Origin: Actinomortierella ambigua
Lineage: Eukaryota; Mortierellomycota; Mortierellomycetes; Mortierellales; Mortierellaceae
Direction of reading: 5' to 3'
Assembly: GCA_016098155.1 (NCBI GenBank)
Contig: JAAAJB010000005.1
Location: 97,356 to 161,355 of the forward strand
DNA length: 64,000 nucleotides
The position numbers and the translations under genes were made by a program. This document shows positions 5,659 through 63,947 of this stretch, in pieces; the first letter of the stretch is position 1; every line of letters starts with the position of its first letter. Under the pieces are notes generated by a model. It saw only the letters and a program-made list of their open reading frames with translations, ran no database searches and was not told where the DNA came from.

Positions 5659-8575
5659 ATGAAGAAGTCGTTCCTGTTCCTCGGTATCTTTGCTGCCCTG
5701 TCGCTCGTTGCTGCCGAGTCTCCCGCAGACACCGCTTCCAAGATCAACAGCCCTGTTGAGAAGCGTGTAGTTCCCGGCAGTGAGGGTTTTACGGACAACT
5801 TTGCCTACGTCAATGAACAGCCTGTTCTCCAGGGCGAGAAGTATCAGTTCCAGGTATATTCACCTTTCTATGCGAAGGGGAAAGGCCAACAACAAGCCAA
5901 AGGGCTGAGAGGATCGGTGCCTTGGAGCCATTGAGATCATATGCTGATCAATGTCATTTTATTCACTCAACTCTTGTTCTAGACTGAAGTCTCGCGTTTG
6001 ATGAACATTGTCATCAACTCCCTGTACAAGACGCCCGAGATCTTCTTGCGTGAGCTGATCTCCAACGGTTCCGATGCCCTGGACAAGATTCGCTTCAAGT
6101 CGCTGACGGACCCAAGCGCCCTGGACAGCAACCCTAGCTTGAACGTCACCATTGCTACGTACAAGAATGAGCGTGTGCTCACAATCACTGACTCGGGCAT
6201 TGGCATGACCAAGCAGGACCTCCAGAACAACCTGGGTACCATTGCCAAGGTAACGTATGAATATGGATGCACAGAGATTGACTTTTTGATAAAGCAAAAA
6301 GCCCATGTGATCCAATCGTATCAACCAAAACAGATTATGGTTTGGCGCTGGCATTTTACCCCTCTCTCTCCCCCCCCTTTCCCCACAGTTTTTCTGTTGG
6401 TCATTCGTTCTAAAATTTTGTGTGTACAAACTCTTTTTTTTCCTCTTGTAGTCCGGTACGTCCGAGTTCCTTGATGCATTGGCAGAGAACAACTCGGAAA
6501 GCGTGGATTTGATCGGCAAGTTTGGTGTCGGATTCTACTCAGTCTTCCTGGTGGCCGACAAGGTGCGTGTGACGTCCAAGCACAACGACGACGACCAGTA
6601 CATCTGGGAGTCGACGGCCGTCAACGACTTTACGATTGCCAAGGACCCCCGTGGCAACACATTGGGTCGTGGCACGCAGATTGCCATTTACCTCAAGCCC
6701 GACCAGGGCCAGTACCTGGAAGAGCGACGCCTTTCAAAGCTGGTTGAGAAGTACTCTGAGTTTATCAGCTTCCCCATCTACCTCCGCCGCGAGAAGACCA
6801 AGACGATCGAGACACCCGTCGAGCCGGTGTCGGAAAAGAAGGCAGACGACGAGTCTGAGGACCCGACGGTCGAGACGGAGGAGGAGGATAAGGCCAAGCA
6901 GCCCCAGACCAAGAAGGAGAAGGTGACGTTCCTCGAGGATGACCTGGTCAACTCGAACAAGCCAATCTGGATGCGCGACCCCAAGGAGGTGTCCGTGGAG
7001 GAGTACGTGCAGTTCTACAAGGTGGTGGCCAGGGACCAAAAGGCGACGCCGATGGCGTACAGCCATTTCCGTGCAGAGGGTGACGTCGACTTTAAGGCGA
7101 TCATCTACATCCCGCGCGAGCCGCCAAAGGACCTGTACCGACGAGTGGACAACAACTACAACAATGTGAAGCTGTACGTGAAGCGGGTGTTTATCACCGA
7201 CGAGTCGCAAGAGTTTTTGCCGCGGTGGCTCAGCTTCCTCAAGGTGGTGGTGGATGCCGAGGATGCGCCGCTGAACGTGTCGCGTGAGACGGTGCAGTCG
7301 TCCAAGTCAGTCAAGTCGATCAAGAAGCGCCTGACCAAGAAGGTGTTTGACCTGCTGCGCGAGCTGTCCAAGGACGAGGAAAAGTATGCCGAGTTTATCA
7401 AGCACTACGGCACGAGCCTGAAGCTCGGTGCGCTGGACGACCGGACCAACAAGGCCAAGATTGCCAAGCTGCTGCGGTACAAGTCTGCCAGCAGCGTGGA
7501 TGGCGAGACCAAGATGACGTCGCTGGACGACTACATTGCGCGGATGAAGGTTGGCCAGAAGGACATTTACTACTTCACGGGCCTGAATGCGGCTGAGATC
7601 AAGCAGTCGCCCTTTGTCGAGGCCCTGTTGGCGCGTGGCTACGAGGTGCTGTTCATGGACGACCCGGCCGATGAGATTGTGGTCAACACGATGCAGGACT
7701 TTGAGGGTCATTCCTTCCAGAACGTCGGCAAGGCCGACCTCAAGCTGGGCGACGAGGACGAGGCGGCCAAGCAGCAGCTCGAACAAGAGTATGCGCCCAT
7801 CGTCGACTGGATCCAGACCACGCTGAGCAAGGAGGTCGAGAAGGTGCGCCTGTCGAGCCGTCTGACAACGTCGCCCGCGGCCTTGGTGGCACCCACCTAT
7901 GGCTGGACGGCCAACATGGAGAAGCTGATGGAGACGTCGGCGAAGCAGAACCGCGACCAGGCCATGAATTCGTTCTACCGGTCGCAGAAGAAGATTCTCG
8001 AGATCAACCCAGGTCACCCGCTGATCAAGGGTATGTTGGCCCGCGCCCAGAAGGACCCCAAGGATGGGTTGGAGAAGGATGCGCAGTTCCAGGAGATGGC
8101 GCGCATCCTGTACGAGATCACGCTTATCCGGTCGGGTTACTCGCTCAAGGACGGCGTCAAGGATTTCGCGGGCCGTGTTGAAAACATGTTGCGTGTGAAT
8201 CTGGGTGTGGACATGAACGCGCAGGCCGAGTATGAGGCGCCTGCGGCCGAGTCGCGGCCGCAGTCGGAGATTGACGAGGATATCAAGCAGCGCAAGGAGC
8301 AAGAGGAGAAGCAGGCCAGGCTGGATTCCCTGCCAGGTGCGGAGGATGACAAGGATGATGAGGACGAGAAGGAGGGTATGTCGGTTGACGAGCTGAACGA
8401 GATGATCAAGGAGATTACCGACGATGTCCCGAGCCAGAAGGTCTTTGCCCATGAGCAGCCTGAGCTTGTCAAGAAGGTTCTCGATGTGGACGATGTTGTC
8501 GCGGATTCGGAGAAGGAACTCGATGCCGAGGACGCGGCGGCGGATACTCAGAAGACTACCCATGATGAGCTTTAA
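5659..8575 (+). CDS. GRP94: ER HSP90 (endoplasmin/GRP94 type)
   Basis: ATP-dependent HSP90 chaperone of the ER lumen. Exons: 5659-5853, 5983-6249, 6452-8575; both introns are phase 0. The product is 861 aa. It starts with a signal peptide ([20 protein letters not shown]) and ends in HDEL, the ER retrieval signal, which separates it from cytosolic HSP90 (MEEVD end). N-domain ATPase motifs are intact: [10 protein letters not shown], then TDSGIGM, then [10 protein letters not shown] split by intron 2, then [17 protein letters not shown]. An acidic/Lys linker lies near residues 270-306. The middle domain has [11 protein letters not shown], and the C-terminal dimerisation region is followed by an acidic tail of about 60 residues. 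The ATG sits in a strong CCACCACC context. It is convergent with the eIF3m gene. Assignment is secure from the signal peptide, HSP90 core and HDEL together. Confidence 0.96.
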
Positions 8576-40093: not shown

Positions 40094-41274
40094 GCGATCC
40101 ACTTGAATGCAATCAACAGCCTACACTCCTGGAATCAATGTAGCGGGCGGGAGGGAGTGGGTGGGTGGGTGGTGAATGAATTCGCGTCAGGGCCAATTTG
40201 CTGGCATGAAAAGTCTCGATTTATTTTGGTGGCGCAATAGCTCAAGGCATGACATTTTTTGTTTCCAGAGATGTTTCCATGGAGAACGCGTGCGAGAAGG
40301 GGGATGTGGATAGAGTATAAGTGGGAGTGAGAGTAAGAGAGAGAGAGAGAAAGAGTGAGGGTGGGAGCGAGAGTGAGAGTGAGGATGCAGTCATTCATTC
40401 CTCTCCTCCACCTCCATCCAAATCCCTTCTCTCCCCTCACTCTCGTTCTCTCCTTCGTCGTGCCTCTCCCCTGTAGAAGGTGGTAACTGGGCTGCTTTTC
40501 AAAGAAAAAAAAAACGCGCCAAGACGCGACTGTTAGAACTGATTACTTTTAAGCGCACAGACACACACACAAAAAAAAAAAAAAAAAAAAGCTATGAGCA
40601 CTATCATCCACAACAAGCAGTTACCACCCGAATAAAATAATAATAACAATAATAACAATGTAAATCATGTTCGGAGAGACTGAGATCGGGACAGGGACGA
40701 ATGCGATGACGAGAGGCCCGATGCCAGGGCGGAGACAGCCAAAAGAAGATAACGAGGGTGATGATGGGGAAAAACGACAGGAGCCAAAATAATATCAAAA
40801 AGGGGATAGTCTACACCGAGCTGATGGACATACGAAGTAATAATGGGAGGCACCCATTGGTACCCCGGCTGCATCCGAGCCGATTGGCCCATACATGTGT
40901 CCCAAAATTACTGACTAGCTGACTGGACTTCACTTGGCACGAGAGCGCCTAACGGTGCCTAAACGACAGCCCACGGGGTCAGCTAAAGCCCTCTCTGTTC
41001 GCACGAGGATATGACATGCACATTGCGAGAGAGCAAAATTTCTGTCTGGACCGCCCTCAGCATGTTAGCATTGGTGGGCCCTTTACGTTGGAAATGAAAT
41101 CCATTAAAACCATCCGCCATGTCCTATTGTTTCTCCCTCACCCCCCCCCTCTCTTCTTGCTTCATTTTTTTATTTTGTATTTTTTTTTACTCTCGTCAAC
41201 TCTTTCTCTCTCTTTTCTCTTTCTTTTTCTCTCTTCTTTCTCTTTCTGTGATTCTTGCTTGGCATTCTATTGTC
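40094..41274. other. Divergent intergenic region between Mms22 and the first Cys-rich gene
   Basis: No gene seen. On the minus strand the C/T-rich leader and a TATA-like TTATACTCTA (about 40312-40322) belong to the Mms22 gene. A 20-base A run lies near 40571. The right part is a T/C-rich leader (41160-41250) before the first Cys-rich gene. Confidence 0.5.
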
Positions 41275-41651
41275 ATGGCACAGACGCGCATGTCATCGCT
41301 GCATTCGTCTCGTATGTCTCGTCAGTCTCGTCACCGCCAAACCACAACGAACAGATTTTGCATTATCATCACCATCATTACCGTCTTCCTATTGGCCAGT
41401 GGCTCCCTTGTTGAAGGTGGGGCACCAGGGCAGCGCTTGATATTACAGAACCTGGCGTAGAAAAAGACGACAAAGTCATCACTAACTCTAAGGCGTCCCC
41501 AATCAACGTTTCTCCGTTCTTTGCTGAGGATATAATAGCAACTTGCACGCAAGAATGTGATAGAGAATTGCACATATGCATCCTTGACGAGGTTGTATGT
41601 AAACAGAAATATAATGATTGCATGTCGTTATGCACAGGCAACACTAAATGA
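41275..41651 (+). CDS. Small secreted cysteine-rich protein, copy 1 (new family)
   Basis: Unrecognised, 84 aa as modelled: exon 1 41275-41416, intron 41417-41538, exon 2 41539-41651 (phase 1). Exon 1 has a basic N-terminus and a hydrophobic segment (FCIIITIITVFLLASGSLVE), a secretion leader; M14 (ATG 41314) would shorten the long basic part. Exon 2 has six cysteines spaced C-x3-C-x6-C-x6-C-x6-C-x3-C, from TCTQECDREL to MSLC, then a stop at 41649. The acceptor ATAATAG and a branch-like ACTAAC at 41481-41486 support the intron; the donor GTGGGG is weak. The neighbour at 42190 has the same layout, intron phase and cysteine spacing. An alternative acceptor at 41527-41528 would add DIIA in another phase. 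An AATAAA lies at 41729. Function unknown. Confidence 0.6.
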
Positions 41652-42189
41652 TATCGACATAAATACTGCTTCAGTTACAAGACTCTTCCAACGATCAACA
41701 CTTTTTCGTTCATTCACCATGGTAATCCAATAAATCAAAAAGGTCAAACGGTACGCCTAGACCATACAATGCGACCGCCCTGAATATGAGACGCTTGTAT
41801 TAGTCTTGGTCTCACTTTCTTCTTCTCCTTCCCCATCTTCCCATTTCACCGTCTATCGTGCCCGTCCTATTCCTCACCCTCCTCCTCTTCCTCTTCGCTT
41901 GCTGCATCGTTCAACGCTCCGGCCTATTCCTGTCCACCCGTCATTTTACTCCACCTTTCACTGCCCTTCCTCCTGACCTCTTCTATCCATTCATTCATTA
42001 CTTCATTCTTTACCTTCCTCCCTTTCCTTCTCTTCCTTCCGTTCACTCATTATTTCTTCTGGTGAGATGCAAACCCTACCTAATCTTCCTCCTCTGCCCC
42101 TCCCCCTTTTAAAAACTGCACACGATGGATTCTCCCAAACTGACGGAGCTTCTTCTCAGGTCGCAAACCAGAACTCGGCCACTCTACAG
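41652..42189. other. Spacer between the two Cys-rich genes
   Basis: 3' sequence of copy 1 with AATAAA at 41729-41734, then a C/T-rich promoter and leader for copy 2. ATGs at 42067 (in frame with the 42190 start) and 42125 (another frame) precede the chosen start. Confidence 0.5.
41729..41734 (+). terminator. Polyadenylation signal AATAAA after Cys-rich gene 1
   Basis: AATAAA lies 78 bases after the stop of the first Cys-rich gene, a plausible 3'-end signal. Confidence 0.35.
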
Positions 42190-42573
42190 ATGCGTCTACC
42201 TTGCTGCTCTTTGGTTGTTGTTCTCACGTGCGCAAGTCTCCTACACCGTGTGTTCGGTAAGAAGTCGAAGGATGTGGCAATGCATAACCTCCCCTCCCCC
42301 TTCAACACGATATACCGGTTTCCGTCGGGAAAAAAATTACTTCAGGGTCATGTAGCCCAAAACCTCCTTGAAAGATCACGTTGCCGCACGCATTCTCTCG
42401 GGTCTTGACACATCTAAAGATTCTTGTTTGACAACATAGCCACACCTGCCTGCCAATCTTCATGCGATCGTGACAAGAACTTGTGCCGTGAGACCGAGGA
42501 GAAATGTAAAGCAGACTACGAAATCTGTATAAACAAATGCAACCAACACAGTGCGGTCGAGAATGCACACTGA
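42190..42573 (+). CDS. Small secreted cysteine-rich protein, copy 2 (new family)
   Basis: Unrecognised, 66 aa: exon 1 42190-42256, intron 42257-42439 (183 bases, donor GTAAGA, acceptor ACATAG, phase 1), exon 2 42440-42573. The first exon plus the first codon of exon 2 give a textbook signal peptide, MRLPCCSLVVVLTCASLLHR then VFA, with cleavage before TPAC. The mature part of about 43 residues has six cysteines in C-x3-C-x6-C-x6-C-x6-C-x3-C (CQSSCDRDKNLC, then CKADYEIC, then CINKC), the same spacing as copy 1. C-C-DR-C-E-C-K-Y-C-C are identical between the two over the 30-residue core, 11 of 30 positions. The C-terminus is hydrophilic. A secreted, disulphide-bonded peptide is inferred; no target or activity can be read from sequence. 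ATG 42067 would add 41 residues in frame before the leader and is less likely. Confidence 0.65.
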
Positions 42574-43511
42574 CCAGCCCGACACCAGCCGTAGAATGAG
42601 AATCCCTTTGTTAGTTATGAAAAAAAACACACAGTCCACCATGCACCGCCATCCACCCTATTAAATGGAGAGGATGAAAGCCACACACAGCAGTGGTTCC
42701 TTTTATTTTATTTGTCCTACCACTATCAGGGTCATTATGCACTCCCACCCCCCCCTCTCTCTCTCACTCTTTCCAAGCCCGTACTCTCTCCGCCTTTGCG
42801 CCACAATGGTGGCAGTATGCGAGTGACTGGTGTATGTAGGGGACGGTGAGGTGTATGAGGGGTGAGCGTCGGAAAAATAAATCGTGCAAGGTCAAGTGTT
42901 TGGATGTCCATGGCGTCGTCTGAAAGCATGATCGGATGACAAGGAGAGGGAGCTTGTATCAAACTCAATAAAGACAGGGATCTTCACATTGCTTCCTTAG
43001 CCTTTTTTTTTCTTGGTGGGCCTAATTGCCGATGACCAGGGAAGAGACTACACCAGGAATGAATGCTCGCCTATCTACTACAGACGCAGATAGAAGGCGA
43101 AATAGATAATTGTAACCACGGGGGGTGGGAAGGGGGCAAGGGGGTTGCTAGGCGTATGTGTGTGTGTATGTATGTATGTGTGCGTATGGTTGTTGTGCAT
43201 GACGACACCATAACCTTGTTGCCCCGCAGATACTGCGAGTTAGGAGCACATGGTGTCTCGAGTTTCTTTTTTCCTCTCTTCTTTGTACTGTCTGTGTAGA
43301 GTAGAGCGCTACTTTCTGCTCCACCCCTTTTGTTTAATGGCCCCTCCTCTCCCTCCCCTCACAAAGTCATCAAATTGGACAATGGCGTACACAAGGGCAT
43401 GGGCGTAGCCTAGTTTTAAAGCTGTAAACAGCGAGACGGCGACAGGCAAACAAGTAAACGGATGAAGCTCATAGCGTAGTTAAAGTAAAAATATATAGCA
43501 TGGGTGCTGCT

Positions 43512-48218: not shown

Positions 48219-50740
48219 ATGGCTGCTGTATACGACACTTTGTTACCCGAACAGCAAGCCTCGCCTCGCACTAGCCCTCGTCAATCGCCTGGGCCATCTT
48301 CCCCTCTGCTCTCCTCAGGATCTGAGCTGTTACTGCGAGACACCTTTATTCTATCGTCGCCTTTGCAACAGTCGATCCAGCCCCAGCCGACACCTCCTTC
48401 CTCAGCCACACCTTCCTCCTCTTCCACGACAACCTCCTCCTCCTCCTCCTCCTCCACCTCCTCTACCTCCTCCTGCTCCTCCTCCTCCTTCTCCACAACC
48501 TCTGCAAAGCCAGGAGTTGGAATGAGCGATTTTCGGCAAACTACCTCTGCCCCCGCCCTTCGACCAAGAGATCCAATAACACCAACGCCCACAATATCGA
48601 CCACAATATCATCGACTAGTTACCGGTCGGACCAGGATCCCGCCACTCCACATCAACGCGTCCCTACCGATACCGTCCTCGAAGGCACTGTCTCGCCAAG
48701 CCCCTCTTCTTGGGCAGGCGAACAGTTTGAGGACATTGACATTCACAGTGGCGACGACGGTGGGTTCTCTCCAGCCTCGAACAACAACGAAGACCAAGGT
48801 GAGGACGCCACTCCAATTTCCTTGTCAGAAATGAGTGCCACACAGTCCACCTTCTTTGAGCGGTCAGCCAGCAAGGGCGAGCATTCGGGACTCCGCCACC
48901 GCACCCTCCCTCTCCCTCCGCCACCCGAAGATAGCAGCGCAGCAGTCGACCCCGCTACCTCATCGATGCCCACCGTAGACAACAACTCTGCCGGCAGGAG
49001 TGGGAGGTCGTTCATGGAGCAGATCCTATCTGACTTGGTAGTTCAGGGAGTCTCCGATTCGTCTCCGTCAACATTGCTGGTAACAGACACATCAGCTACT
49101 ACTCTTAACACCACCACCACCGCCACCACTACAACGACATCAGCAGTAGGGACAACTCGCAGACCGCAGTCTTCGTGGCATCCTTCCTCAACCCCCTCTT
49201 CGGAATCCTCGTCGCCATCTTCTTCCCCAAAAGATCGGCAACACTTTGGTGATGTGGAGCAACCCTTGCTCAGCAACAATACCCCGTCACCAGGCGGATC
49301 TCCCTCCATGATCCTTCCCGGCACCTCCATCTCTCCAGGCACAGCACAGGCCCATCTCTCTCTATCAAGGCTTTCTTCGTCGTCGCCTTCCTCATCTGTC
49401 CATTCCTCGCCCTCTGTCTCGAGGAGTCGGTCGGGTGCGAGTCGAACAAGCGACCGTCAGCCTACGGCTACGTACCACCAGCTTCTGCACTCCGTGAACA
49501 GGCTCGAGGTCGAGAAAGCCTTTCTTTACAATCAGAATGTGGCTCTGATGCGCGAAGTACAGCAGGCTCGACAAACGGCCGTGGCGCTCAAGCAGATCCT
49601 AGCCCAACGCGACGACATGATCACAAAGCTACGCCATGAGTATCGACAAATGTGCATGAAGGCGCGCTTTATGGAAAGTGTCATCATTGGGCAGCGCGGT
49701 CAGGTTCTCATGCAGACCACAGCCGGTTCCACCAGTCAATCCTCCCTTTCATCGTTCGCTAGCGAGGTTATGCCTGGCCCTTCTTCGTCTGCAGCGCCTA
49801 CAGCAGCGACAGCGACAGTAGCAGTAGCAGCGGCAGCAGCAGCGCGCGGTACAGGATCGTCTAGTACAGAGTCTCTTCCTCTATCCACATCCGGTCCCCA
49901 GCCTACAGTACAACACCCTATCAACCAAACGCTCAGTACAACTCCTAATAGAGTCGTTGGGTCGGGGCAAAGAGTACCAAACACTGATGCTATCAAGGCA
50001 TCTCTACAAAAGGCCCTTGGTCCATTGAACCCGGAGACGGAACGGACCTTGATGGAAATGATCCTCAAAGGCGTCAACGCCAATCATCGCGGGGACGAGG
50101 GCGAGGGTGAGGAAGGGGACGACGACGATGAAGACGATCTTGATGATCTTGACGACGACGACGATGATGACGACTTTGACGATGACGACGACGACGATTA
50201 TGACGACGACGACGAAGAGGAAGAGGAGGATTTGACAGACGATGAAGACGAAGATGCACAGGACGATGCCGAGGATCGTGATGGAGACGTCCGAATGGCG
50301 CACGGTCTTGCCAAAAGTCGAGCTGGCCCGATACAGTCATCACAGGATTGGGTCCCACCCACAAGATCCCAGCCTTGGATGGTGCGCCCGGGAGCAAAGC
50401 AGACAACGGACCCAACGCTGGCAGTGAAGATGGCTCAACAACAGGCGCTAATTCAACAACAGCGGCAGCGGCAGCAGCAACAAATGCAGCATCTGGCGAC
50501 GGTGCGCCAACAACAACTTAAGCAGCAGCAGCAACAGCAACAACAACTACAACAACAACAACAACAGCAGCAGCAACAACAGCAGCAGATACAGCTACAG
50601 CAACAGCTACAACAACAGCATCAACTACAACAGCATCATCAATTACAACAGCAACATCAACTACAGCAGCAACATCAATCAAACTTACTACTACTACAGC
50701 AACAACAACAACAGCAGCAGCAGCAACATCAATCAAACTT

Positions 50741-55468: not shown

Positions 55469-58400
55469 CTACGAGTAGCGAGTAAAGTCAACAACAGACT
55501 CGAGGCCAAGAATACCTCCTGCACCTCCACCTCCACCTCCACTACCACCACCACCTCCACCAGCGCTACCGGAATGAGCTCCGGCTCCAGCGCCACCATT
55601 CGCGCTGCTTCCTCCACCTCCACCAAGACCGCCCGTCAATGCCGATCCAGCACCGCCGCCGCCTCCACCGCCGCCGCCTCCACCGCCGCCGCCAAGAAAC
55701 CGTCCTCCGCTCCCCTCGCCAACGGAGCTTGCCATGCTGGCGCCAAGGGACGACGAGGCCATAGACGATGACAGCGTGGATCCAACGACATTCGAGGCGA
55801 GCGAGGACAGGCCAAGACCGAGTAGACCTGAGCTTTGTAGTGGTTGTTGTTGCTGCGATCCTCCGCCGCCAAGCAACCCCGTCTCAAAGTCAAAGTCATC
55901 ATCAAAGTCTTGCTGTTGTTGCTGCTGCTGCTGCTGTTGTTGTTGAAGTTGAGCCTGCTGTTGTTGCTGTTGTTGCTGTTGCTGCTGTTGCTGTTGTTGC
56001 TGCTGTTGCTGCTGTGTCAACCGCTCCTTGATCCGCTTGATCTGTCGCAGACGCTCCTGCCAATTGGACACATACTCGACACTGCCCTGCAAGTGCTGGT
56101 AATACACCTGCGCATACAGATTGGCATGCAGCGCCATCTGTCGCACAAACTTTGGCAACTCTGACGCACTGATGATCTTGGGCGTCGCAAGCGGTCCAAT
56201 CTCTGGCATGTCTGCTCGTCGAAGCATCACCACCCGGAACCACACATTCTTGAGCGGCTGGATCCCCGTCAGTCCCGACCCTACTAGCCCTGCATGCCCG
56301 CTCAGGAATGCTGGCGAGGCTTGTATGTTGTTGTTGCTGGTACCACCTGGCTGCAATTGTTCTGACGACGACGACTGCTTGGCACCTGTCGTCTCGACAC
56401 TCGCCTGCTGTTCCCTTCGTTGCCGCTCTTCTTCCTCCTCCTTCTTCTCTTCCTCCTCTTTCAACTGCTGCTGGTGGTGATGCCACTGCAACAACTTTGA
56501 CGCCGCCTCCACAAACGTGATGGATGCCATCGAGACCGGGGTGATGACCAGCGTAATGAAATTAAACTGTCCAGAAATGGTCCCGAAATCATACTCGGCC
56601 TCCGAATCATTGTACACGACCGTGACCCAATCGTTACCGATATGGCGCTTCTTGCCATGGCACTGCGGGTCATGGTCGACATTGGTCGGCATCATCGTCG
56701 CCACGTGGAAGACCATCTGGGTGATCTCGTCCTGGTGCGAGTACGCATACTCGCCATCCAGATCCATCGACGTGTCCAACCCGCCCGTGTACAGCGTGCT
56801 GTCCTTGAGCCGCACCAACGACCCCAGTCCCGTCAGGAACCGCGTGTACTCGTACGATCCATGGTTATTGCGTAGAATCTCCGTCTCCGTCCGCTGTCCC
56901 CTTCCGACATAGATCACGCCCACCTTGTGGAAATCCACCACCGGCGTCCGATCCAGGACACCCAACGCTCGCACTGTCGCATCATCATCGCTCAGCAGGA
57001 TCGGCGTCTCGCGTGCCATCGCATCTGGGAACGACGTCAGTTGCATAAACAAGAAACTCGGATCTACCATCGCCTCCATCGCTCGATACGGTCGCATCAC
57101 ATTCCCGGACGACGACGTCATCATCGTCGCTGTCGTCGCCGCCGTCGTCGTTGTTGGCCCATCATACGGCGTCGTCCCTCCAGAGCCACCACCACCACCA
57201 GGAGTAACTCCTCCACTACTACCACCACCAATGGCCGTCAACAACGGTGGCCGATGGTCGTCCGTCGAAAACGCCGGTCGATACAACTTGCCGATTGCTC
57301 CAGTGATGCTATTGTGCCGTGACGTGGTCGCCGACACCGATCCAGACCCCGATGCGGATCCCTTACGGCTACCAACACCACCACTGCTGTGGCCTGGACC
57401 GGCAGTACCACCTCCACCACTGCCGCTGCCACTGCTAGAGCTCCGCTGGATCGTCGACCCTCCGAAGCCTCCTCCTCCTCCTCCACCTCCACCTCCAGTG
57501 CTACTGCCCATCATCGTCTGCGACAGGAGCGACTTTGTCTGCTCTAGCGCACTGCCCAGCGGGCCGCGACTCAGCTCTGCATGCTTGACGACGCTACCAC
57601 CGACGCCACCGCCACCACCACCGCTGCTGCTGTTGCTGCCGCCGAGTCGATGCGCCGAGCTCGCCTGATCGCCTGCAGATTTTGACCGGCCCAACGAGCC
57701 AGACAGTGCATTTCCAGCGCTAATGCCCATCTGATGACTCTGACTACTACTACTACCGCCCTGGCCGCTGCCGCCGTGGTGTTGGTGAGGATGAGTGTCC
57801 ATGGCAAGAGAGGACGACGACGAGGACGACGTGCCCATCGCTGCTGCTGCTGTCACGTTGGTCACCGTCGGGTCGACGGGTGTGGGTGACCGTGGTTCAA
57901 ACTGGGTCGTCGCCGTTGCCGTTGTCGTTGTTGTGGATGCTGCTGTGTTGGCCAACGTCTCCGCGCTATCGCCCGATGGATGGAAGCTCGACACATGATC
58001 CGTCGGCGCCGTATGTACACGATGATGCCCTCCTCCTCCAAGACTTCCAAGGCCTCCAAGACCTCCTCCAGGCAACGTCGTCTGCGCAATCGCCTCACGC
58101 GTGGCCGGCATCCACGACCGGGTTGGTGGCGAGCTCGACGGTGTGTTTTCGCCCGACGGTAACGGCGACGCACGCGGTGTATGGCGCGGCGTCTGGGCTG
58201 GTGTCTGCAACGGCGTCACCTGCGGCGTCACCTGTGGGGTTGTGCGTGGCGACAGCCACGAGGTATACGGTGGTTGTTGCTGCTGCTGCTGCTGCAAGTC
58301 GCCGAGTCGATGCTGAAGAAGACCACCACCACCACTACCACTACTATTACTTTGAAGGCTATTCGTGCTCTCAAACCCAGGGGGTCCTGATGGTGGGAGC

Positions 58401-61400
58401 ACCGTCGGCATCATCATTCCTCCATGTCGCTGTGATTGCAACAACGATGACGACGAGGATGATGATGCGAGCAATGCCGGTGCTGGAGGGAACGGAGGAA
58501 GAGAAGGAGGCGGATGTACCACAGAGGGTGGTGGGAGCGGTGGTAGATGCGCCGTAGTCGTCGAGGCAGCAACAGCTCCTCCGTCCTCGCCCGATCCCGA
58601 TGGGAGGAACGACGACAACGATGACGATGACGCCGACGACGACAACAGCGACGTCCGGATCTCGGGCCCCATGGCCGGTTGGATATGCACGCCAACAGCC
58701 CTTGCTGCCACATCAGGCGTTGGTAGAGCCGTCGTCCGCGCTGAGGTAGATCCACCTGGTACCACTGCCATTGTTGTCGCTGTTTCTGCTGCTCCCGCCG
58801 TCGTCGTCGCCGCCGCCGCCGCCGCAGCCGCCGCCGCTGTAGCAGCAGCAGCAGCAGCAGCAGCCATCGACTCTTCTTGCAAGCGCAGAAAAGCCGGCAG
58901 GATCACAGACTCGAGCTCGTCCGTCGAATGCATAAACAGCTCATTCTCGACCTTGACCAAAAACGACACGGTCCCTGACGCGCGGCGCACCGTGATCTCG
59001 GCCCACCCAAGGTTCTGGCTCGTCGTCACCGAAATAAACGCATTGCCCTGGATCCACGTCTTGGTGTGCACGCGACCCACCATCGCCACGTTACCACAAT
59101 GGCTGCTGCTACTGCCTCCTGCTGCTCCTGCTCCTGTTCCTCCTCTTGCCTTCCGCATTAGCAATTTCTGTGTCAGCGAGGGCCGTGGCTTGGGCTCGCA
59201 ATTGGCATACGAGTACCGCGCCAACATGTCCAGACAGACCTCCGATTGCTCGTCCAGCTTCTTGCTGTTCTCGTTGGCCTTGAGCAGGTTCCGCACCACA
59301 TACGGCACATACTTGCGCCGCTCTTGCAGCCGCTGCAGCATGAACCATATGTCAATCACTTGGTACGCCATGATCAGCACGTATTGTGGAAGGGCACGTG
59401 CGCCGGCTGAACTCTGGTGAAGACCATGGGTATGATGATGATGATGATGGCCGCCGTGGTGGTGGTGTTGGTTTCCGCCCTGTTGCTGTTGCTGCTGAGA
59501 TGCAACGTTGCCACTGCCACTACTACCACCGACTGAACCTGTCGCTGATGAACCTGCTGTGGTCTGTTGCTGTTGCTGCTGCTGCTGTTGGGCAACACTA
59601 TGGGTATACTGGATATACTTGAGAGCAATACCAAAGACACGCTTATAGTCGCTCTCAACAAAGTTGGCATACAAGGCCGGCAACCGCGCAACGGTGGACA
59701 GGAACTCGAGGATATGGACGCTGATGGTGGCCGTCGACATGATCTGGGACAGGCGCAACAACGTCGCCGACAAATGCTTGGTCATCGACTGTGGCAGCTC
59801 AAAACAACACAACACCAACGCATGGATACAAATCTTGGCACACGTTGCCTGGCGTTGCAACCCAACCACAAACGCATGCACGAGATCATGCTGGTCCTGC
59901 ATCGTCAGCTTGCTATGGTAGCACAACAGAATCACCAACACGCGATACGCCAGAATATGGAGCGTGTTCCGTCGCACGCTGACCGGCACCATGTTCCGAA
60001 GCCCCTCTGGAACCCGGTCCTTGCTCGTCATCGACACCAGGGCTTGATCCAGCTGCTTGATCTGGTCACCACTGTTGCAAAACAGATGCTTGTTGAACAG
60101 CTGGATCCCCAACCGCTGCATCAGAAACGTGTACACCTCCCAGTCCCGCTCCTGCTGCAACAGACTCAACACCCCGCTCACGTACAGCGGAACGTTGAGG
60201 ATCATCTTGGCACACCGGACCAACGGCACTGGCAGATTCTCGCTCTCTCGCTGGTCGCCATGGTCGTTGGTTGTTTTGTTGTTATTGTTGTTGTTGTTGT
60301 AGTCGTCGTCGTCATCCGCTCTCGTCGATGCAATTTCGAGATATGAGATCACATAGGGGCTCGCATGCACCGTCCGTCCGTGTTTAAGCAACTTCCAGCT
60401 GGTCGATGGGTCGAATGTCGTCGTCGTCGTCACTGTGGCTGTGGCTGACGTGGCAGAGGCCGATGGAGCCGGTTCGCCTGCAAGATTTGTCTGCTGCCTC
60501 AATCCGCTAGGTCCATGTCGCGAGACGCCTGTGCGCGCCAATCCAGACCCACTGCTACCACCGCCACCAACACCACCACTACTACCGCCAACAACACCAC
60601 TACTAGCAGCTTGTCTCATCTCATCGACACCCGGTAGAGAATCACCAACAGCGACCATCTCCTCGACGACCCGTGGGTCCTCGCAGTAGATGCGGTGATC
60701 GAGGTCGACGCGAAGGCAAAGCAAAAAGTCGAGCATGACCAGCCGAGACCGTTGGTGGACCTCCTGGTTGATGGATAGGCTGACCAGCAGGCGGAACAAG
60801 TCATCTACCTTGGACGCGCCGTCGGGATCATACAGCGCCAGTTGGAACAGGTCAATGAGCCCCACAGCGGCTCGAAGAGACTGGCAGGCTGCATGCGGTA
60901 GTGCCGACGATTGTTGTTGTTGTTGTGATGATGAATGTAGGGATCGATTCCTATTGGGGAGACGAGTGCCGGCACCCCCACTGCTTCCACTACCTCCACT
61001 ACTTGTTCCTCCTCCTCCTGTACCAGCAACATTCATCATGTTGGAGCTGCCTTGACTACCGCCACCACCGCCACCACTGCTGGTACTACTACTTCCGCTA
61101 CCACTGGAAGTCATTCCGAGCCTTGAAGCGAGAAAGGAATGTGGAGAGCTGGCAGTTCCCTGTTGCTGGTGGTGGTGCTGTTGTTCCTGCTGCTGCTGTT
61201 GCTGCTGTTGCTCCTGTTGTTGCTGTTGCGACTGCTGCGAGTGAGGCTGAGACTGCTGTGGCTGAGGCTTGGTGACACATTGACACCGAACAATCTGTAC
61301 AATGCGATCCAACAGGACACTAAACAGGTCGTCCGAGGCATACTTGATGCTATCGACGAGCAACGTCGCCAACGCGGCCGCCATCTCGCCATTGGTCTCC

Positions 61401-63205
61401 TGCGGCAGGGTATCAAAGATGTCGAGAAAGATGGTCCGCACAATTTCCTCGTGGAAAAACTCGATCGAGGCCTGATAGACATCGATCGCCGTCGCTAGCG
61501 CCTTGAGCCGCACACTCGACCGCGTCTCCTGAATGATCGACCGCCGTACCATCTCCTGTAGCCGCTCCAGCCAGTGCGGCGTGTATGGGTAAAAGGCGTG
61601 GTCTGTGTGATAGTACGCCAACAAGAGAATCAGTGTTTGCTCTGGAAGGTGCCGCTGACACTGCGAGAGGAGTTGCATCAGTCGCTTGGTCACCGATGGG
61701 ATCGCGTTAGCCTTGTAGAGGTCGACGAGGAGGAAGAGTAGTTGGCCAAAGTTGTCAATGAGCTGTTGAAATGGCGAAACGTTTTCCCCATGTTCGAGCT
61801 TGGTCCCAAAGATGAAGAATGGAGGTTGTTGCTTTTGGGTTGTTGCTGTTGTTGTTGTAGTGCTGGTGGTGGTCATGGGGGCTGAAAAGAGGCCGATGCT
61901 GGTCGTCGTTGTGGACGCAATGGTTGCTTGGTCGCTGGTCTCGGGCTCCAGCCATTGAAGCATCTTCTCCATGATTTCCATGACAATCTCAAACTCCAAG
62001 TCGCCGAGGGTTTCCAGTCGTGACCTCAACAGCCGGGTGATGCTGGCCAGGATGTCGCAGTTGATGGGAAAGGCCTGGAAGGAGAGACAGCTCTTCATGG
62101 ACCAGAGTACGGTCGTGTACGGGAAGGAGAGGCCCTCGATCTGCATGGGCCCCCATACGGATCTTTCCAACAATCGGATGCTTCCCTGGATGGTGCGCGT
62201 GTGTGCCGGGGTCGGTGGTTGAGACGAAGAGTCTTGAGGGCGAAGGTTCTGACAGAGGATGCGTAGGGCACCGTGGGCGCTGTGACTCTTGAGAAGGTTG
62301 AGGGTGATGGTCCAAGCCTTGTCGCTGTAGGCGTCGATCATGGTGATGTGACAGAGGATCCGGAGAAAGGTGGGCAGTCCGACGACAGGCACGAATCCGT
62401 AGCGGACAATGACATCCAAGAAGCCAATGGTGTGGGGGATGTCCTCGGGAGCGTTGATGCAGATGGTGTAGAGGAGTTGAAGGAGGCCGGCAATCTCATC
62501 CTCCTCAAAGAAGACAAAGTTGAAGCGGACGACGTTGATGAGCAGGGCCATGATGGCCTCGAGGTGGGGGATGGGTTTGGTGAGGAGGATGAGGTGCGGG
62601 GTGCTGCTGGAGGCAGGGAGGGAGGTGGTGGACTTTTGCATGCCGATACGTTGTTGTTTGATGTGCTGCGCTACCTTGGCCTGTTCAAAGCTGGAGTGGA
62701 CCCAATGCGAGAGGAGGCGAACGATATTCTTTTCGAATCCGTAGACATCGCGGCCGTCGTTGGTGAGCTCCTTGAGCGCCTGGAGTTTGTCGTCAAAGTC
62801 GTCCCAAATGTCGTGTTTGTTGATGGCCTGGTAAAAGACGGCGCGCAACATCCCGAGGTCCTCAAACTGTCCATGGATGCAGGCAATCATGAAGGACCAG
62901 ACAGTTTTGCGGGCGCGATGGGGGACGCCAGCCTCGAGCAGGTCCTCGACGGCGACCCATAGTTCGCTCGTGTGTTGAAACGGGTATATGGTGATGATGC
63001 CGTTGAGCTCCTCGAGCGTGCGAAGGCGAGACTGGAGGGTGTTTGTGCCAGGGATGAGCTGGTGAACAATCTCGTGGGCGTCAATGGGGTCCGTTGGGCG
63101 CGCCGAGTCGAGTCTGAGGGTCTCATGGAGCGACGTTTCCTTGGATCTGGATGAAAACTTGAAGAAGCTGTTGATCTTTGAGGTGGACCCCGACTTTTTG
63201 GACAT
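55469..63205 (-). CDS. tsc2: Tuberin (TSC2), Rheb GTPase-activating protein
   Basis: With TSC1, tuberin switches off the GTPase Rheb and so TORC1. One 7737-base coding exon from ATG 63205 (MSKKSGSTSKINSFFKF) gives 2578 aa against about 1800 in human. The N-terminal alpha-helical repeat domain runs from about residue 30 (LRTLEELNGIITIYPFQHTS, WDDFDDKLQALKELT). The Rap/Ran-GAP domain is near residues 2080-2260 (TPVVDFHKVGVIYVGRGQ, YEYTRFLTGLGSLVRLKD, GKKRHIGNDWVTVVYNDS). The Asn of HIGND, about residue 2191, is the catalytic asparagine thumb and is intact. Between and after these are long Gly, Ser and Gln tracts, with poly-Gln and poly-Gly in the last 220 residues. The frame stays open to 63373, but an AG acceptor at 63279-63280 points to a spliced 5' leader. 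Convergent with the Gln-rich gene. Confidence 0.92.
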   Translation of the reverse strand: MSKKSGSTSKINSFFKFSSRSKETSLHETLRLDSARPTDPIDAHEIVHQLIPGTNTLQSRLRTLEELNGIITIYPFQHTSELWVAVEDLLEAGVPHRARKTVWSFMIACIHGQFEDLGMLRAVFYQAINKHDIWDDFDDKLQALKELTNDGRDVYGFEKNIVRLLSHWVHSSFEQAKVAQHIKQQRIGMQKSTTSLPASSSTPHLILLTKPIPHLEAIMALLINVVRFNFVFFEEDEIAGLLQLLYTICINAPEDIPHTIGFLDVIVRYGFVPVVGLPTFLRILCHITMIDAYSDKAWTITLNLLKSHSAHGALRILCQNLRPQDSSSQPPTPAHTRTIQGSIRLLERSVWGPMQIEGLSFPYTTVLWSMKSCLSFQAFPINCDILASITRLLRSRLETLGDLEFEIVMEIMEKMLQWLEPETSDQATIASTTTTSIGLFSAPMTTTSTTTTTATTQKQQPPFFIFGTKLEHGENVSPFQQLIDNFGQLLFLLVDLYKANAIPSVTKRLMQLLSQCQRHLPEQTLILLLAYYHTDHAFYPYTPHWLERLQEMVRRSIIQETRSSVRLKALATAIDVYQASIEFFHEEIVRTIFLDIFDTLPQETNGEMAAALATLLVDSIKYASDDLFSVLLDRIVQIVRCQCVTKPQPQQSQPHSQQSQQQQQEQQQQQQQQEQQHHHQQQGTASSPHSFLASRLGMTSSGSGSSSTSSGGGGGGSQGSSNMMNVAGTGGGGTSSGGSGSSGGAGTRLPNRNRSLHSSSQQQQQSSALPHAACQSLRAAVGLIDLFQLALYDPDGASKVDDLFRLLVSLSINQEVHQRSRLVMLDFLLCLRVDLDHRIYCEDPRVVEEMVAVGDSLPGVDEMRQAASSGVVGGSSGGVGGGGSSGSGLARTGVSRHGPSGLRQQTNLAGEPAPSASATSATATVTTTTTFDPSTSWKLLKHGRTVHASPYVISYLEIASTRADDDDDYNNNNNNNKTTNDHGDQRESENLPVPLVRCAKMILNVPLYVSGVLSLLQQERDWEVYTFLMQRLGIQLFNKHLFCNSGDQIKQLDQALVSMTSKDRVPEGLRNMVPVSVRRNTLHILAYRVLVILLCYHSKLTMQDQHDLVHAFVVGLQRQATCAKICIHALVLCCFELPQSMTKHLSATLLRLSQIMSTATISVHILEFLSTVARLPALYANFVESDYKRVFGIALKYIQYTHSVAQQQQQQQQQTTAGSSATGSVGGSSGSGNVASQQQQQQGGNQHHHHGGHHHHHHTHGLHQSSAGARALPQYVLIMAYQVIDIWFMLQRLQERRKYVPYVVRNLLKANENSKKLDEQSEVCLDMLARYSYANCEPKPRPSLTQKLLMRKARGGTGAGAAGGSSSSHCGNVAMVGRVHTKTWIQGNAFISVTTSQNLGWAEITVRRASGTVSFLVKVENELFMHSTDELESVILPAFLRLQEESMAAAAAAAATAAAAAAAAAATTTAGAAETATTMAVVPGGSTSARTTALPTPDVAARAVGVHIQPAMGPEIRTSLLSSSASSSSLSSFLPSGSGEDGGAVAASTTTAHLPPLPPPSVVHPPPSLPPFPPAPALLASSSSSSSLLQSQRHGGMMMPTVLPPSGPPGFESTNSLQSNSSGSGGGGLLQHRLGDLQQQQQQQPPYTSWLSPRTTPQVTPQVTPLQTPAQTPRHTPRASPLPSGENTPSSSPPTRSWMPATREAIAQTTLPGGGLGGLGSLGGGGHHRVHTAPTDHVSSFHPSGDSAETLANTAASTTTTTATATTQFEPRSPTPVDPTVTNVTAAAAMGTSSSSSSSLAMDTHPHQHHGGSGQGGSSSSQSHQMGISAGNALSGSLGRSKSAGDQASSAHRLGGSNSSSGGGGGGVGGSVVKHAELSRGPLGSALEQTKSLLSQTMMGSSTGGGGGGGGGGFGGSTIQRSSSSGSGSGGGGTAGPGHSSGGVGSRKGSASGSGSVSATTSRHNSITGAIGKLYRPAFSTDDHRPPLLTAIGGGSSGGVTPGGGGGSGGTTPYDGPTTTTAATTATMMTSSSGNVMRPYRAMEAMVDPSFLFMQLTSFPDAMARETPILLSDDDATVRALGVLDRTPVVDFHKVGVIYVGRGQRTETEILRNNHGSYEYTRFLTGLGSLVRLKDSTLYTGGLDTSMDLDGEYAYSHQDEITQMVFHVATMMPTNVDHDPQCHGKKRHIGNDWVTVVYNDSEAEYDFGTISGQFNFITLVITPVSMASITFVEAASKLLQWHHHQQQLKEEEEKKEEEEERQRREQQASVETTGAKQSSSSEQLQPGGTSNNNIQASPAFLSGHAGLVGSGLTGIQPLKNVWFRVVMLRRADMPEIGPLATPKIISASELPKFVRQMALHANLYAQVYYQHLQGSVEYVSNWQERLRQIKRIKERLTQQQQQQQQQQQQQQQQQQQQAQLQQQQQQQQQQQQDFDDDFDFETGLLGGGGSQQQQPLQSSGLLGLGLSSLASNVVGSTLSSSMASSSLGASMASSVGEGSGGRFLGGGGGGGGGGGGGGAGSALTGGLGGGGGSSANGGAGAGAHSGSAGGGGGGSGGGGGGAGGILGLESVVDFTRYS

Positions 63206-63947
63206 GACTGGTGATGATGATGACGATGCTGCTGCTGCTGTTGCTGATGATGATGATAGTACGGTGGGAGACACGGGCCTACAACAAACAGTGTGAATGG
63301 TCCAGTGGTGAGCACCTTTGCAAACAAAAAAAAAAGTCGTGAGGAAGAGAGAGAGAGAGACAACACCGCCCATCAAACAAAAGAAAACACCAGCAGATTG
63401 TTAGTCAGACTGACTGATTGATACTCGACGCGTACAGAGCACACAACAGCATCGCCAACACACGGGGACACACCTCAGCAGGGAGCTTGTAACTGTCGCG
63501 AAGAGGGGAAGGAGCGGCTAGGAGGTGCGAAGGGCAGCCACTAGAAAGAGGAATAAGAAAACCACGTAGGTTAAGGTATGCTTTTTTTTTTTGTTTTCTG
63601 TGTATTTATTATAGAGTCATTGGGGCAAGGAGATTACCTCTCAGAATGTAATGGATGGTTTGAAGGCAATGCAGTGCAGAGCAGAGCAGAGCAATGCAAA
63701 GCGATGGAATGCAATGGTGGGGTGAGTGTGGTCAACAGATGCAAAGTGAAGACGAGCGTGCGACTATAAAAAAACACAACTCTGTGGGAAGAAGGGGAGG
63801 ACAGAGGGAACGAAGAACGAGTCACAATATCTTCACGGGAAGGATGAACGTAGTCTTTATTTGTATCTGTCTATCTGTCTAACAGTTTTCTGTGCACTGG
63901 GCACACGAGCAAGCAGGCGTGCAAGGTACTCTCTCTGTCTGTCTGTC

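Follow-up and report, generated by a model that had tools for sequence, protein, structure and literature searches.

Two short genes, here called A and B, lie on the plus strand of a contig from the soil fungus Actinomortierella ambigua (Mortierellomycota), with start positions 0.9 kb apart and a gap of 538 bp from the stop codon of A to the start codon of B. The window that was analyzed, a stretch of 64,000 nucleotides, covers bases 97356 to 161355 of this 161,355-base contig, in an assembly of 33.8 Mb and 846 contigs. Both genes combine a leader exon, a phase-1 intron, and a last exon bearing the exact frame C-x3-C-x6-C-x6-C-x6-C-x3-C (Table 1). The preliminary description had proposed this common plan and noted that neither gene is a single open reading frame; every element that it stated is present in the sequence. 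The two introns are of the GT..AG type and split the Ala codon of a V-x-A|T site, which reads V-E-A-T in A and V-F-A-T in B. This motif is consistent with the -3, -1 rule of signal peptidase cleavage. The leaders reach a peak 11-residue hydropathy of 3.25 (A) and 2.78 (B), and the predicted mature peptides, TCTQECDRELHICILDEVVCKQKYNDCMSLCTGNTK for A and TPACQSSCDRDKNLCRETEEKCKADYEICINKCNQHSAVENAH for B, are both acidic, with pI values of 4.95 (36 residues) and 5.49 (43 residues) and a net charge of -2 each.

Table 1. Features of genes A and B, in window coordinates
Feature	Position	Strand	Description
Pyrimidine-rich tract immediately 5' of gene A	41125..41274	+	86% C+T
Gene A	41275-41416 and 41539-41651	+	84 codons, then a stop
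Gene A exon 1	41275..41416	+	leader by translation, hydrophobic core CIIITIITVFLLA
Gene A intron	41417..41538	+	122 nt, phase 1, AAG|GTGGGG...ataatag; weak donor
Gene A exon 2	41539..41651	+	remainder of Ala codon, mature peptide TCTQEC...GNTK (36 aa), stop
Gene A six-cysteine core	41544..41633	+	spacing 4-7-7-7-4
Candidate poly(A) signal (AATAAA) for gene A	41729..41734	+	consensus match only
Pyrimidine-rich tract 5' of gene B	41820..42060	+	83% C+T
Gene B	42190-42256 and 42440-42573	+	66 codons, then a stop
Gene B exon 1	42190..42256	+	putative signal peptide MRLPCCSLVVVLTCASLLHRVF(A), by translation
Gene B intron	42257..42439	+	183 nt, phase 1, TCG|GTAAGA...acatag
Gene B exon 2	42440..42573	+	remainder of Ala codon, mature peptide TPACQSSC...VENAH (43 aa), stop
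Gene B six-cysteine core	42451..42540	+	spacing 4-7-7-7-4
Candidate poly(A) signal (AATAAA) for gene B	42876..42881	+	consensus match only

Alternative starts exist for both genes. Gene A has two more in-frame ATGs, at 41290 and 41314, while upstream of gene B an in-frame ATG at 42067 would place 41 extra residues ahead of the leader and another, at 42125, is out of frame. The latter opens another frame that overlaps the leader of gene B (window 42113-42355, plus strand), with the hydrophobic string YLAALWLLF; it could be an overlapping upstream frame, or chance. The pyrimidine-rich tract before gene A may have a promoter role, and only 0.16% of the 150-mers of the window are as strand biased. 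The 150 bases immediately before 42190, at gene B, contain just 62% C+T. Further poly(A) candidates for gene B are ATTAAA at 42660 and AATAAA at 42967. Upstream, the neighbor of the pair is an MMS22-type gene on the minus strand, and further downstream lies a gene for a tuberin-type protein (DUF3384, Tuberin, and Rap_GAP; window 55472-63400, minus strand), which forms a single unbroken frame of 2643 codons.

Relatedness of the two cores

The cores of A and B are identical at 11 of 30 positions, the count given previously, comprising the six cysteines plus D, R, E, K, and Y. Conservation is thus concentrated in the cysteines (6/6, versus 5/24 for the other positions; Fisher test, 7.8e-4), whose spacing, 4-7-7-7-4, is a palindrome. 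The Smith-Waterman score between the cores is 68, whereas shuffled sequences average 25.6 (standard deviation, 5.2) and none of 5000 reaches 68; BLASTP, run as a single comparison, returns an E value of 7e-6. Moreover, of the 6606 stop-free segments in the contig, 917 with homopolymers were dropped; among the 5689 that were scored, each core is the best non-self match of the other, the next-best segments scoring 53 for core A and 43 for core B. The segment that scores 53 is a cysteine-rich frame, ACDAQDHQCVRVAKVCATDGAACQSVC, at about window 56082-56321 on the minus strand, in another frame of the tuberin gene. We take this match as a product of chance, and it serves as a yardstick for the score of 68.

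The spacing itself is rare, as it arose once in 300,000 shufflings at the fixed composition of B. None of 1731 Markov-resampled contigs contained, on the same strand and no more than 3 kb apart, a pair of six-cysteine runs with equal spacing, while the real contig holds 82 six-cysteine runs and a single such pair, A and B (low-complexity runs and runs with adjacent cysteines being excluded from both the real and the resampled counts). The resampled contigs average only 40 runs; since twice the runs would give about four times as many chance pairs, the upper bound is still under 1 in 100. A looser scan, in which overlaps are counted, yields 85 six-cysteine stop-free segments in 164 kb, so that a lone segment of this kind proves nothing. 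The exact regular expression gave five extra matches, all inside a single low-complexity poly-Cys stretch on the minus strand (50566-50617), which was set aside. Outside low-complexity runs, neither the frame nor its two half-motifs occur elsewhere on the whole 161 kb contig, and no third copy was found there. The A/B pair is not due to chance. The earlier proposals of an old tandem duplication and of small secreted cysteine-rich peptides are both well supported by the spacing, the shared residues, the leader, and the intron position.

Coding status and searches for relatives

We hold with strong confidence that A and B are real genes. Four of the 11 identical core residues are encoded by different codons, which argues for selection on the protein, and the introns, at 122 and 183 nt with TAG ends, resemble the 129- and 202-nt introns of the HSP90 gene in this window, which have TAG ends too. 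Codon usage does not favor the coding claim and counts against it. Scored against five core-gene stretches of the window, the two cores obtain -22.4 and -14.6, whereas equally long coding windows reach means of 8.9 and 10.6, and for synonymous choice alone both cores fall below all of 2000 simulated coding draws. Compared with intergenic-type draws, the whole coding sequences show no clear excess (P = 0.09 for A and 0.17 for B). Identity between A and B by codon position (13, 17, and 13 of 30) carries no coding signature. The weak donor of A, the existence of splice choices other than the modeled introns, the out-of-frame ATG ahead of B, and the failure to find a third copy on the contig or a homologue in the searches below also count against the claim. 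Weak codon bias is expected in young, weakly expressed genes.

This intergenic-like codon usage, together with the failure to find an annotated homologue, would suit pseudogenes or a noncoding remnant of a duplicated ancestral gene. Such an origin is nevertheless very improbable, as both copies retain open frames, splice sites, the cleavage site, and all six cysteines, the latter even though 19 of the 24 other core residues differ. The pair most likely represents two orphan secreted-peptide genes.

Searches for relatives agree with the earlier statements that the genes are unannotated and belong to no named family. For A and B, Pfam gave only C_tripleX and Axin_b-cat_bind, both under their cutoffs, and NCBIfam held no family for either. 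C_tripleX (PF02363) scored 15.5 bits on the last exon of B, against a curated cutoff of 22.9, and did not match A; across the A. ambigua genome, its profile gave four sub-cutoff matches, with the frame in none of the four loci. Among 5.8 billion proteins, including those annotated in A. ambigua, no relative of either precursor was found, a candidate being defined by 0.55 to 1.75 times the query length and three 5-residue words in common. PDB sequences yielded no relative (two rows with a best E value of 3.2 in one search, one row at 0.17 in another, and none in a third), and Rfam gave no match. Pattern searches returned 43 stretches in prokaryote genomes and 22 in viral contigs, none of which was confirmed; plasmids, searched with B only, yielded no relative. 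In the A. ambigua genome, protein and DNA queries recovered only themselves. Since this shared-word search misses A when started from B, a larger family may exist in the genome.

Fungi often have orphan secreted peptides rich in cysteine, so the surprise is moderate, and the interest of A and B lies in the annotation gap and in the structural prediction discussed below. Gene finders readily overlook peptides of about 40 residues when an intron interrupts the gene at the signal cleavage site, so that the set of peptides secreted by Mortierellomycota may be larger than annotations suggest.

Predicted fold of the six-cysteine core

Going beyond the earlier reading, we propose that the A and B peptides probably fold as helical hairpins. 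In helix geometry, core positions 1, 5, and 12 fall on one face, and positions 19, 26, and 30 do likewise. A rigid two-helix fit brings the cysteine pairs 1-6, 2-5, and 3-4 to 4.2, 4.5, and 3.9 Å between C-betas. This pairing scores 1.1, whereas the five other inter-helix pairings score 13.8 to 135 (at least 12 times worse) and the remaining 9 of the 15 pairings would need an intra-helix bridge. Given a hairpin, we are quite confident in bridges 1-6, 2-5, and 3-4. Random spacings fitted equally well in 1 of 120, 4 of 200, and 7 of 665 trials, although these began from 6 to 8 poses and the real spacing from 25 to 30, a bias in favor of the latter.

AlphaFold2, provided with the two peptide sequences alone, predicts helices H2-11 and H17-33 in peptide A (mean pLDDT, 89.9; pTM, 0.59) and H2-14 and H19-39 in peptide B (mean pLDDT, 86.7; pTM, 0.62), these being the best of five models, with mean values that spread from 57.4 to 89.9 for A and from 51.5 to 86.7 for B. 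Block pLDDT over residues 1 to 30 lies between 92 and 97 in both peptides. These results consist of helices and their confidence, the bridges having been predicted separately. The rigid-helix test and AlphaFold2 agree on a two-helix hairpin as the predicted fold. Also in favor of the proposal, neither 30-residue core contains Pro or Gly, which has a chance of about 0.001 at the local composition. That the inter-helix loops, ILDEVV and RETEEK, are also devoid of both residues counts against a hairpin.

The same loops would suit a core forming one helix of about 30 residues, with its cysteines in a single stripe, that zips by disulfides into a dimer, either antiparallel (1-6', 2-5', 3-4') or parallel. 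With all of the spacings, including the middle 7, the cysteines would stay on one face of the helix, within 60 degrees, and at 100 degrees per residue the six-rung dimers score 1.42 and 1.21, close to the 1.12 of the hairpin. We strongly doubt this arrangement: the dimers fit less well than the hairpin when the helix turns by 98 or 102 degrees per residue, and AlphaFold2 breaks the helix at a nearly equal aligned site in A and B, albeit in a monomer job, which cannot offer a dimer. In addition, secreted plant peptides are already known to use stapled hairpins as a scaffold (PMC4695807).

Known counterparts and possible function

By leader, V-x-A|T site, length (36 and 43 residues), and six cysteines, A and B conform to the general plan of small secreted cysteine-rich peptides. 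Their frame, and the string CX3CX6CX6C, were not found in the published literature searched. The known fold nearest to the predicted hairpin is that of the plant alpha-hairpinins (such as EcAMP1, VhTI, and BWI-2c), a bridged antiparallel helix-turn-helix with the motif CX3C...CX3C (PMC4695807). These have two bridges and are rich in Lys and Arg, whereas A and B are acidic and have six cysteines, with two extra conserved cysteines between the outer CX3C pairs. Alignment of B with EcAMP1 spans just 8 residues (E = 0.28). The small Tim proteins of mitochondria have a comparable twin CX3C helix-loop-helix, with bridges 1-4 and 2-3 (PMC3759932), but they have four cysteines and are mitochondrial. 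PF02953 matched neither A nor B up to an E value of 10, while giving eight exon-level matches elsewhere in the genome.

The nearest printed frame that we found belongs to the aphid peptide BCR3, a secreted orphan with six mirror-symmetric cysteines, a CX3CX6C start, and a CX6CX3C end. The full frame, CX3CX6C-x21-25-CX6CX3C, matches A and B in its outer parts, but its central spacer has 21 to 25 residues instead of 6; its bridges are listed as unknown, and BCRs are given as restricted to aphids, in PMC9604261. We take the likeness, which on the published pattern concerns the frame only, as probable convergence. Since a defining feature fails in each case, A and B are assigned to none of BCR3, the alpha-hairpinins, and the small Tims. 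The bridges 1-6, 2-5, and 3-4 predicted from the palindromic 4-7-7-7-4 frame would extend to BCR3.

In the mechanism that we propose, the leader exon ends at V-x-A|T, with its Ala codon split by the phase-1 intron, as read in the sequence. Removal of the leader in the secretory pathway would release the two acidic peptides. Each would form two antiparallel helices carrying three cysteines on the inner face, and a three-rung disulfide ladder would replace a hydrophobic core. Taken jointly, this view of A and B as secreted, disulfide-stapled helical-hairpin peptides and old tandem duplicates has an even chance of being right. The last step is the weakest: the stapled hairpin would be a stable scaffold outside the hypha, whose outward positions diverged while the cysteines were kept, and the two copies might differ in the proteins that they bind in competitors, grazers, or partners. 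Such a role in biotic interactions is a tentative suggestion. As to function more generally, protein binding outside the cell seems most likely, the net charge of -2 favoring it over membrane lysis.

The peptides could instead serve the development or structure of the fungus that makes them, as part of the spore coat or hyphal wall or as a peptide signal, with no link to other organisms. This would be in line with their acidic, noncationic character and with the position of the pair among housekeeping genes, MMS22-type and tuberin. We regard such a role as unlikely, given that conservation of only 5 of the 24 noncysteine positions suits changing partners better than a fixed structure.

An antimicrobial function, in which the peptides permeabilize bacterial or fungal membranes and perhaps keep endohyphal bacteria in check, as is thought for BCR and NCR peptides, is distinctly unlikely. 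It draws on BCR3, which shares the palindromic six-cysteine plan (PMC9604261) and which, as a synthetic peptide at 5 µM, left no colony from treated E. coli (PMC6594739), and on one survey, cited in PMC10386755, in which 30% of Mortierellales isolates were bacteria associated. The net charge of -2 of both mature peptides speaks against it. The sole bacterial-type small-subunit rRNA match found in the assembly (C589:6145-7498; 5 of 579 candidates scored) lies in 34% GC DNA and is followed by a frame that we take to resemble GIY-YIG intron endonucleases. This setting indicates that the match probably belongs to the mitochondrial genome, so that the idea of an endobacterium here rests on analogy.

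It is a long shot that A, B, and relatives in Mortierellaceae might constitute a new fungal class of three-rung hairpins, convergent with the plan of BCR3, both serving the host in its dealings with bacteria. If so, fungal peptides, like BCR3, would help their host to deal with bacteria living in or on it.

The HSP90 gene of the window (5659-8572, plus strand) encodes a leader and a C-terminal HDEL, which mark the protein as the endoplasmic-reticulum form. It is 98.9% identical to one A. ambigua record over residues 155 to 860 and 89% identical, over the part searched, to a second record of the same name, which suggests that more than one species may be filed under A. ambigua.
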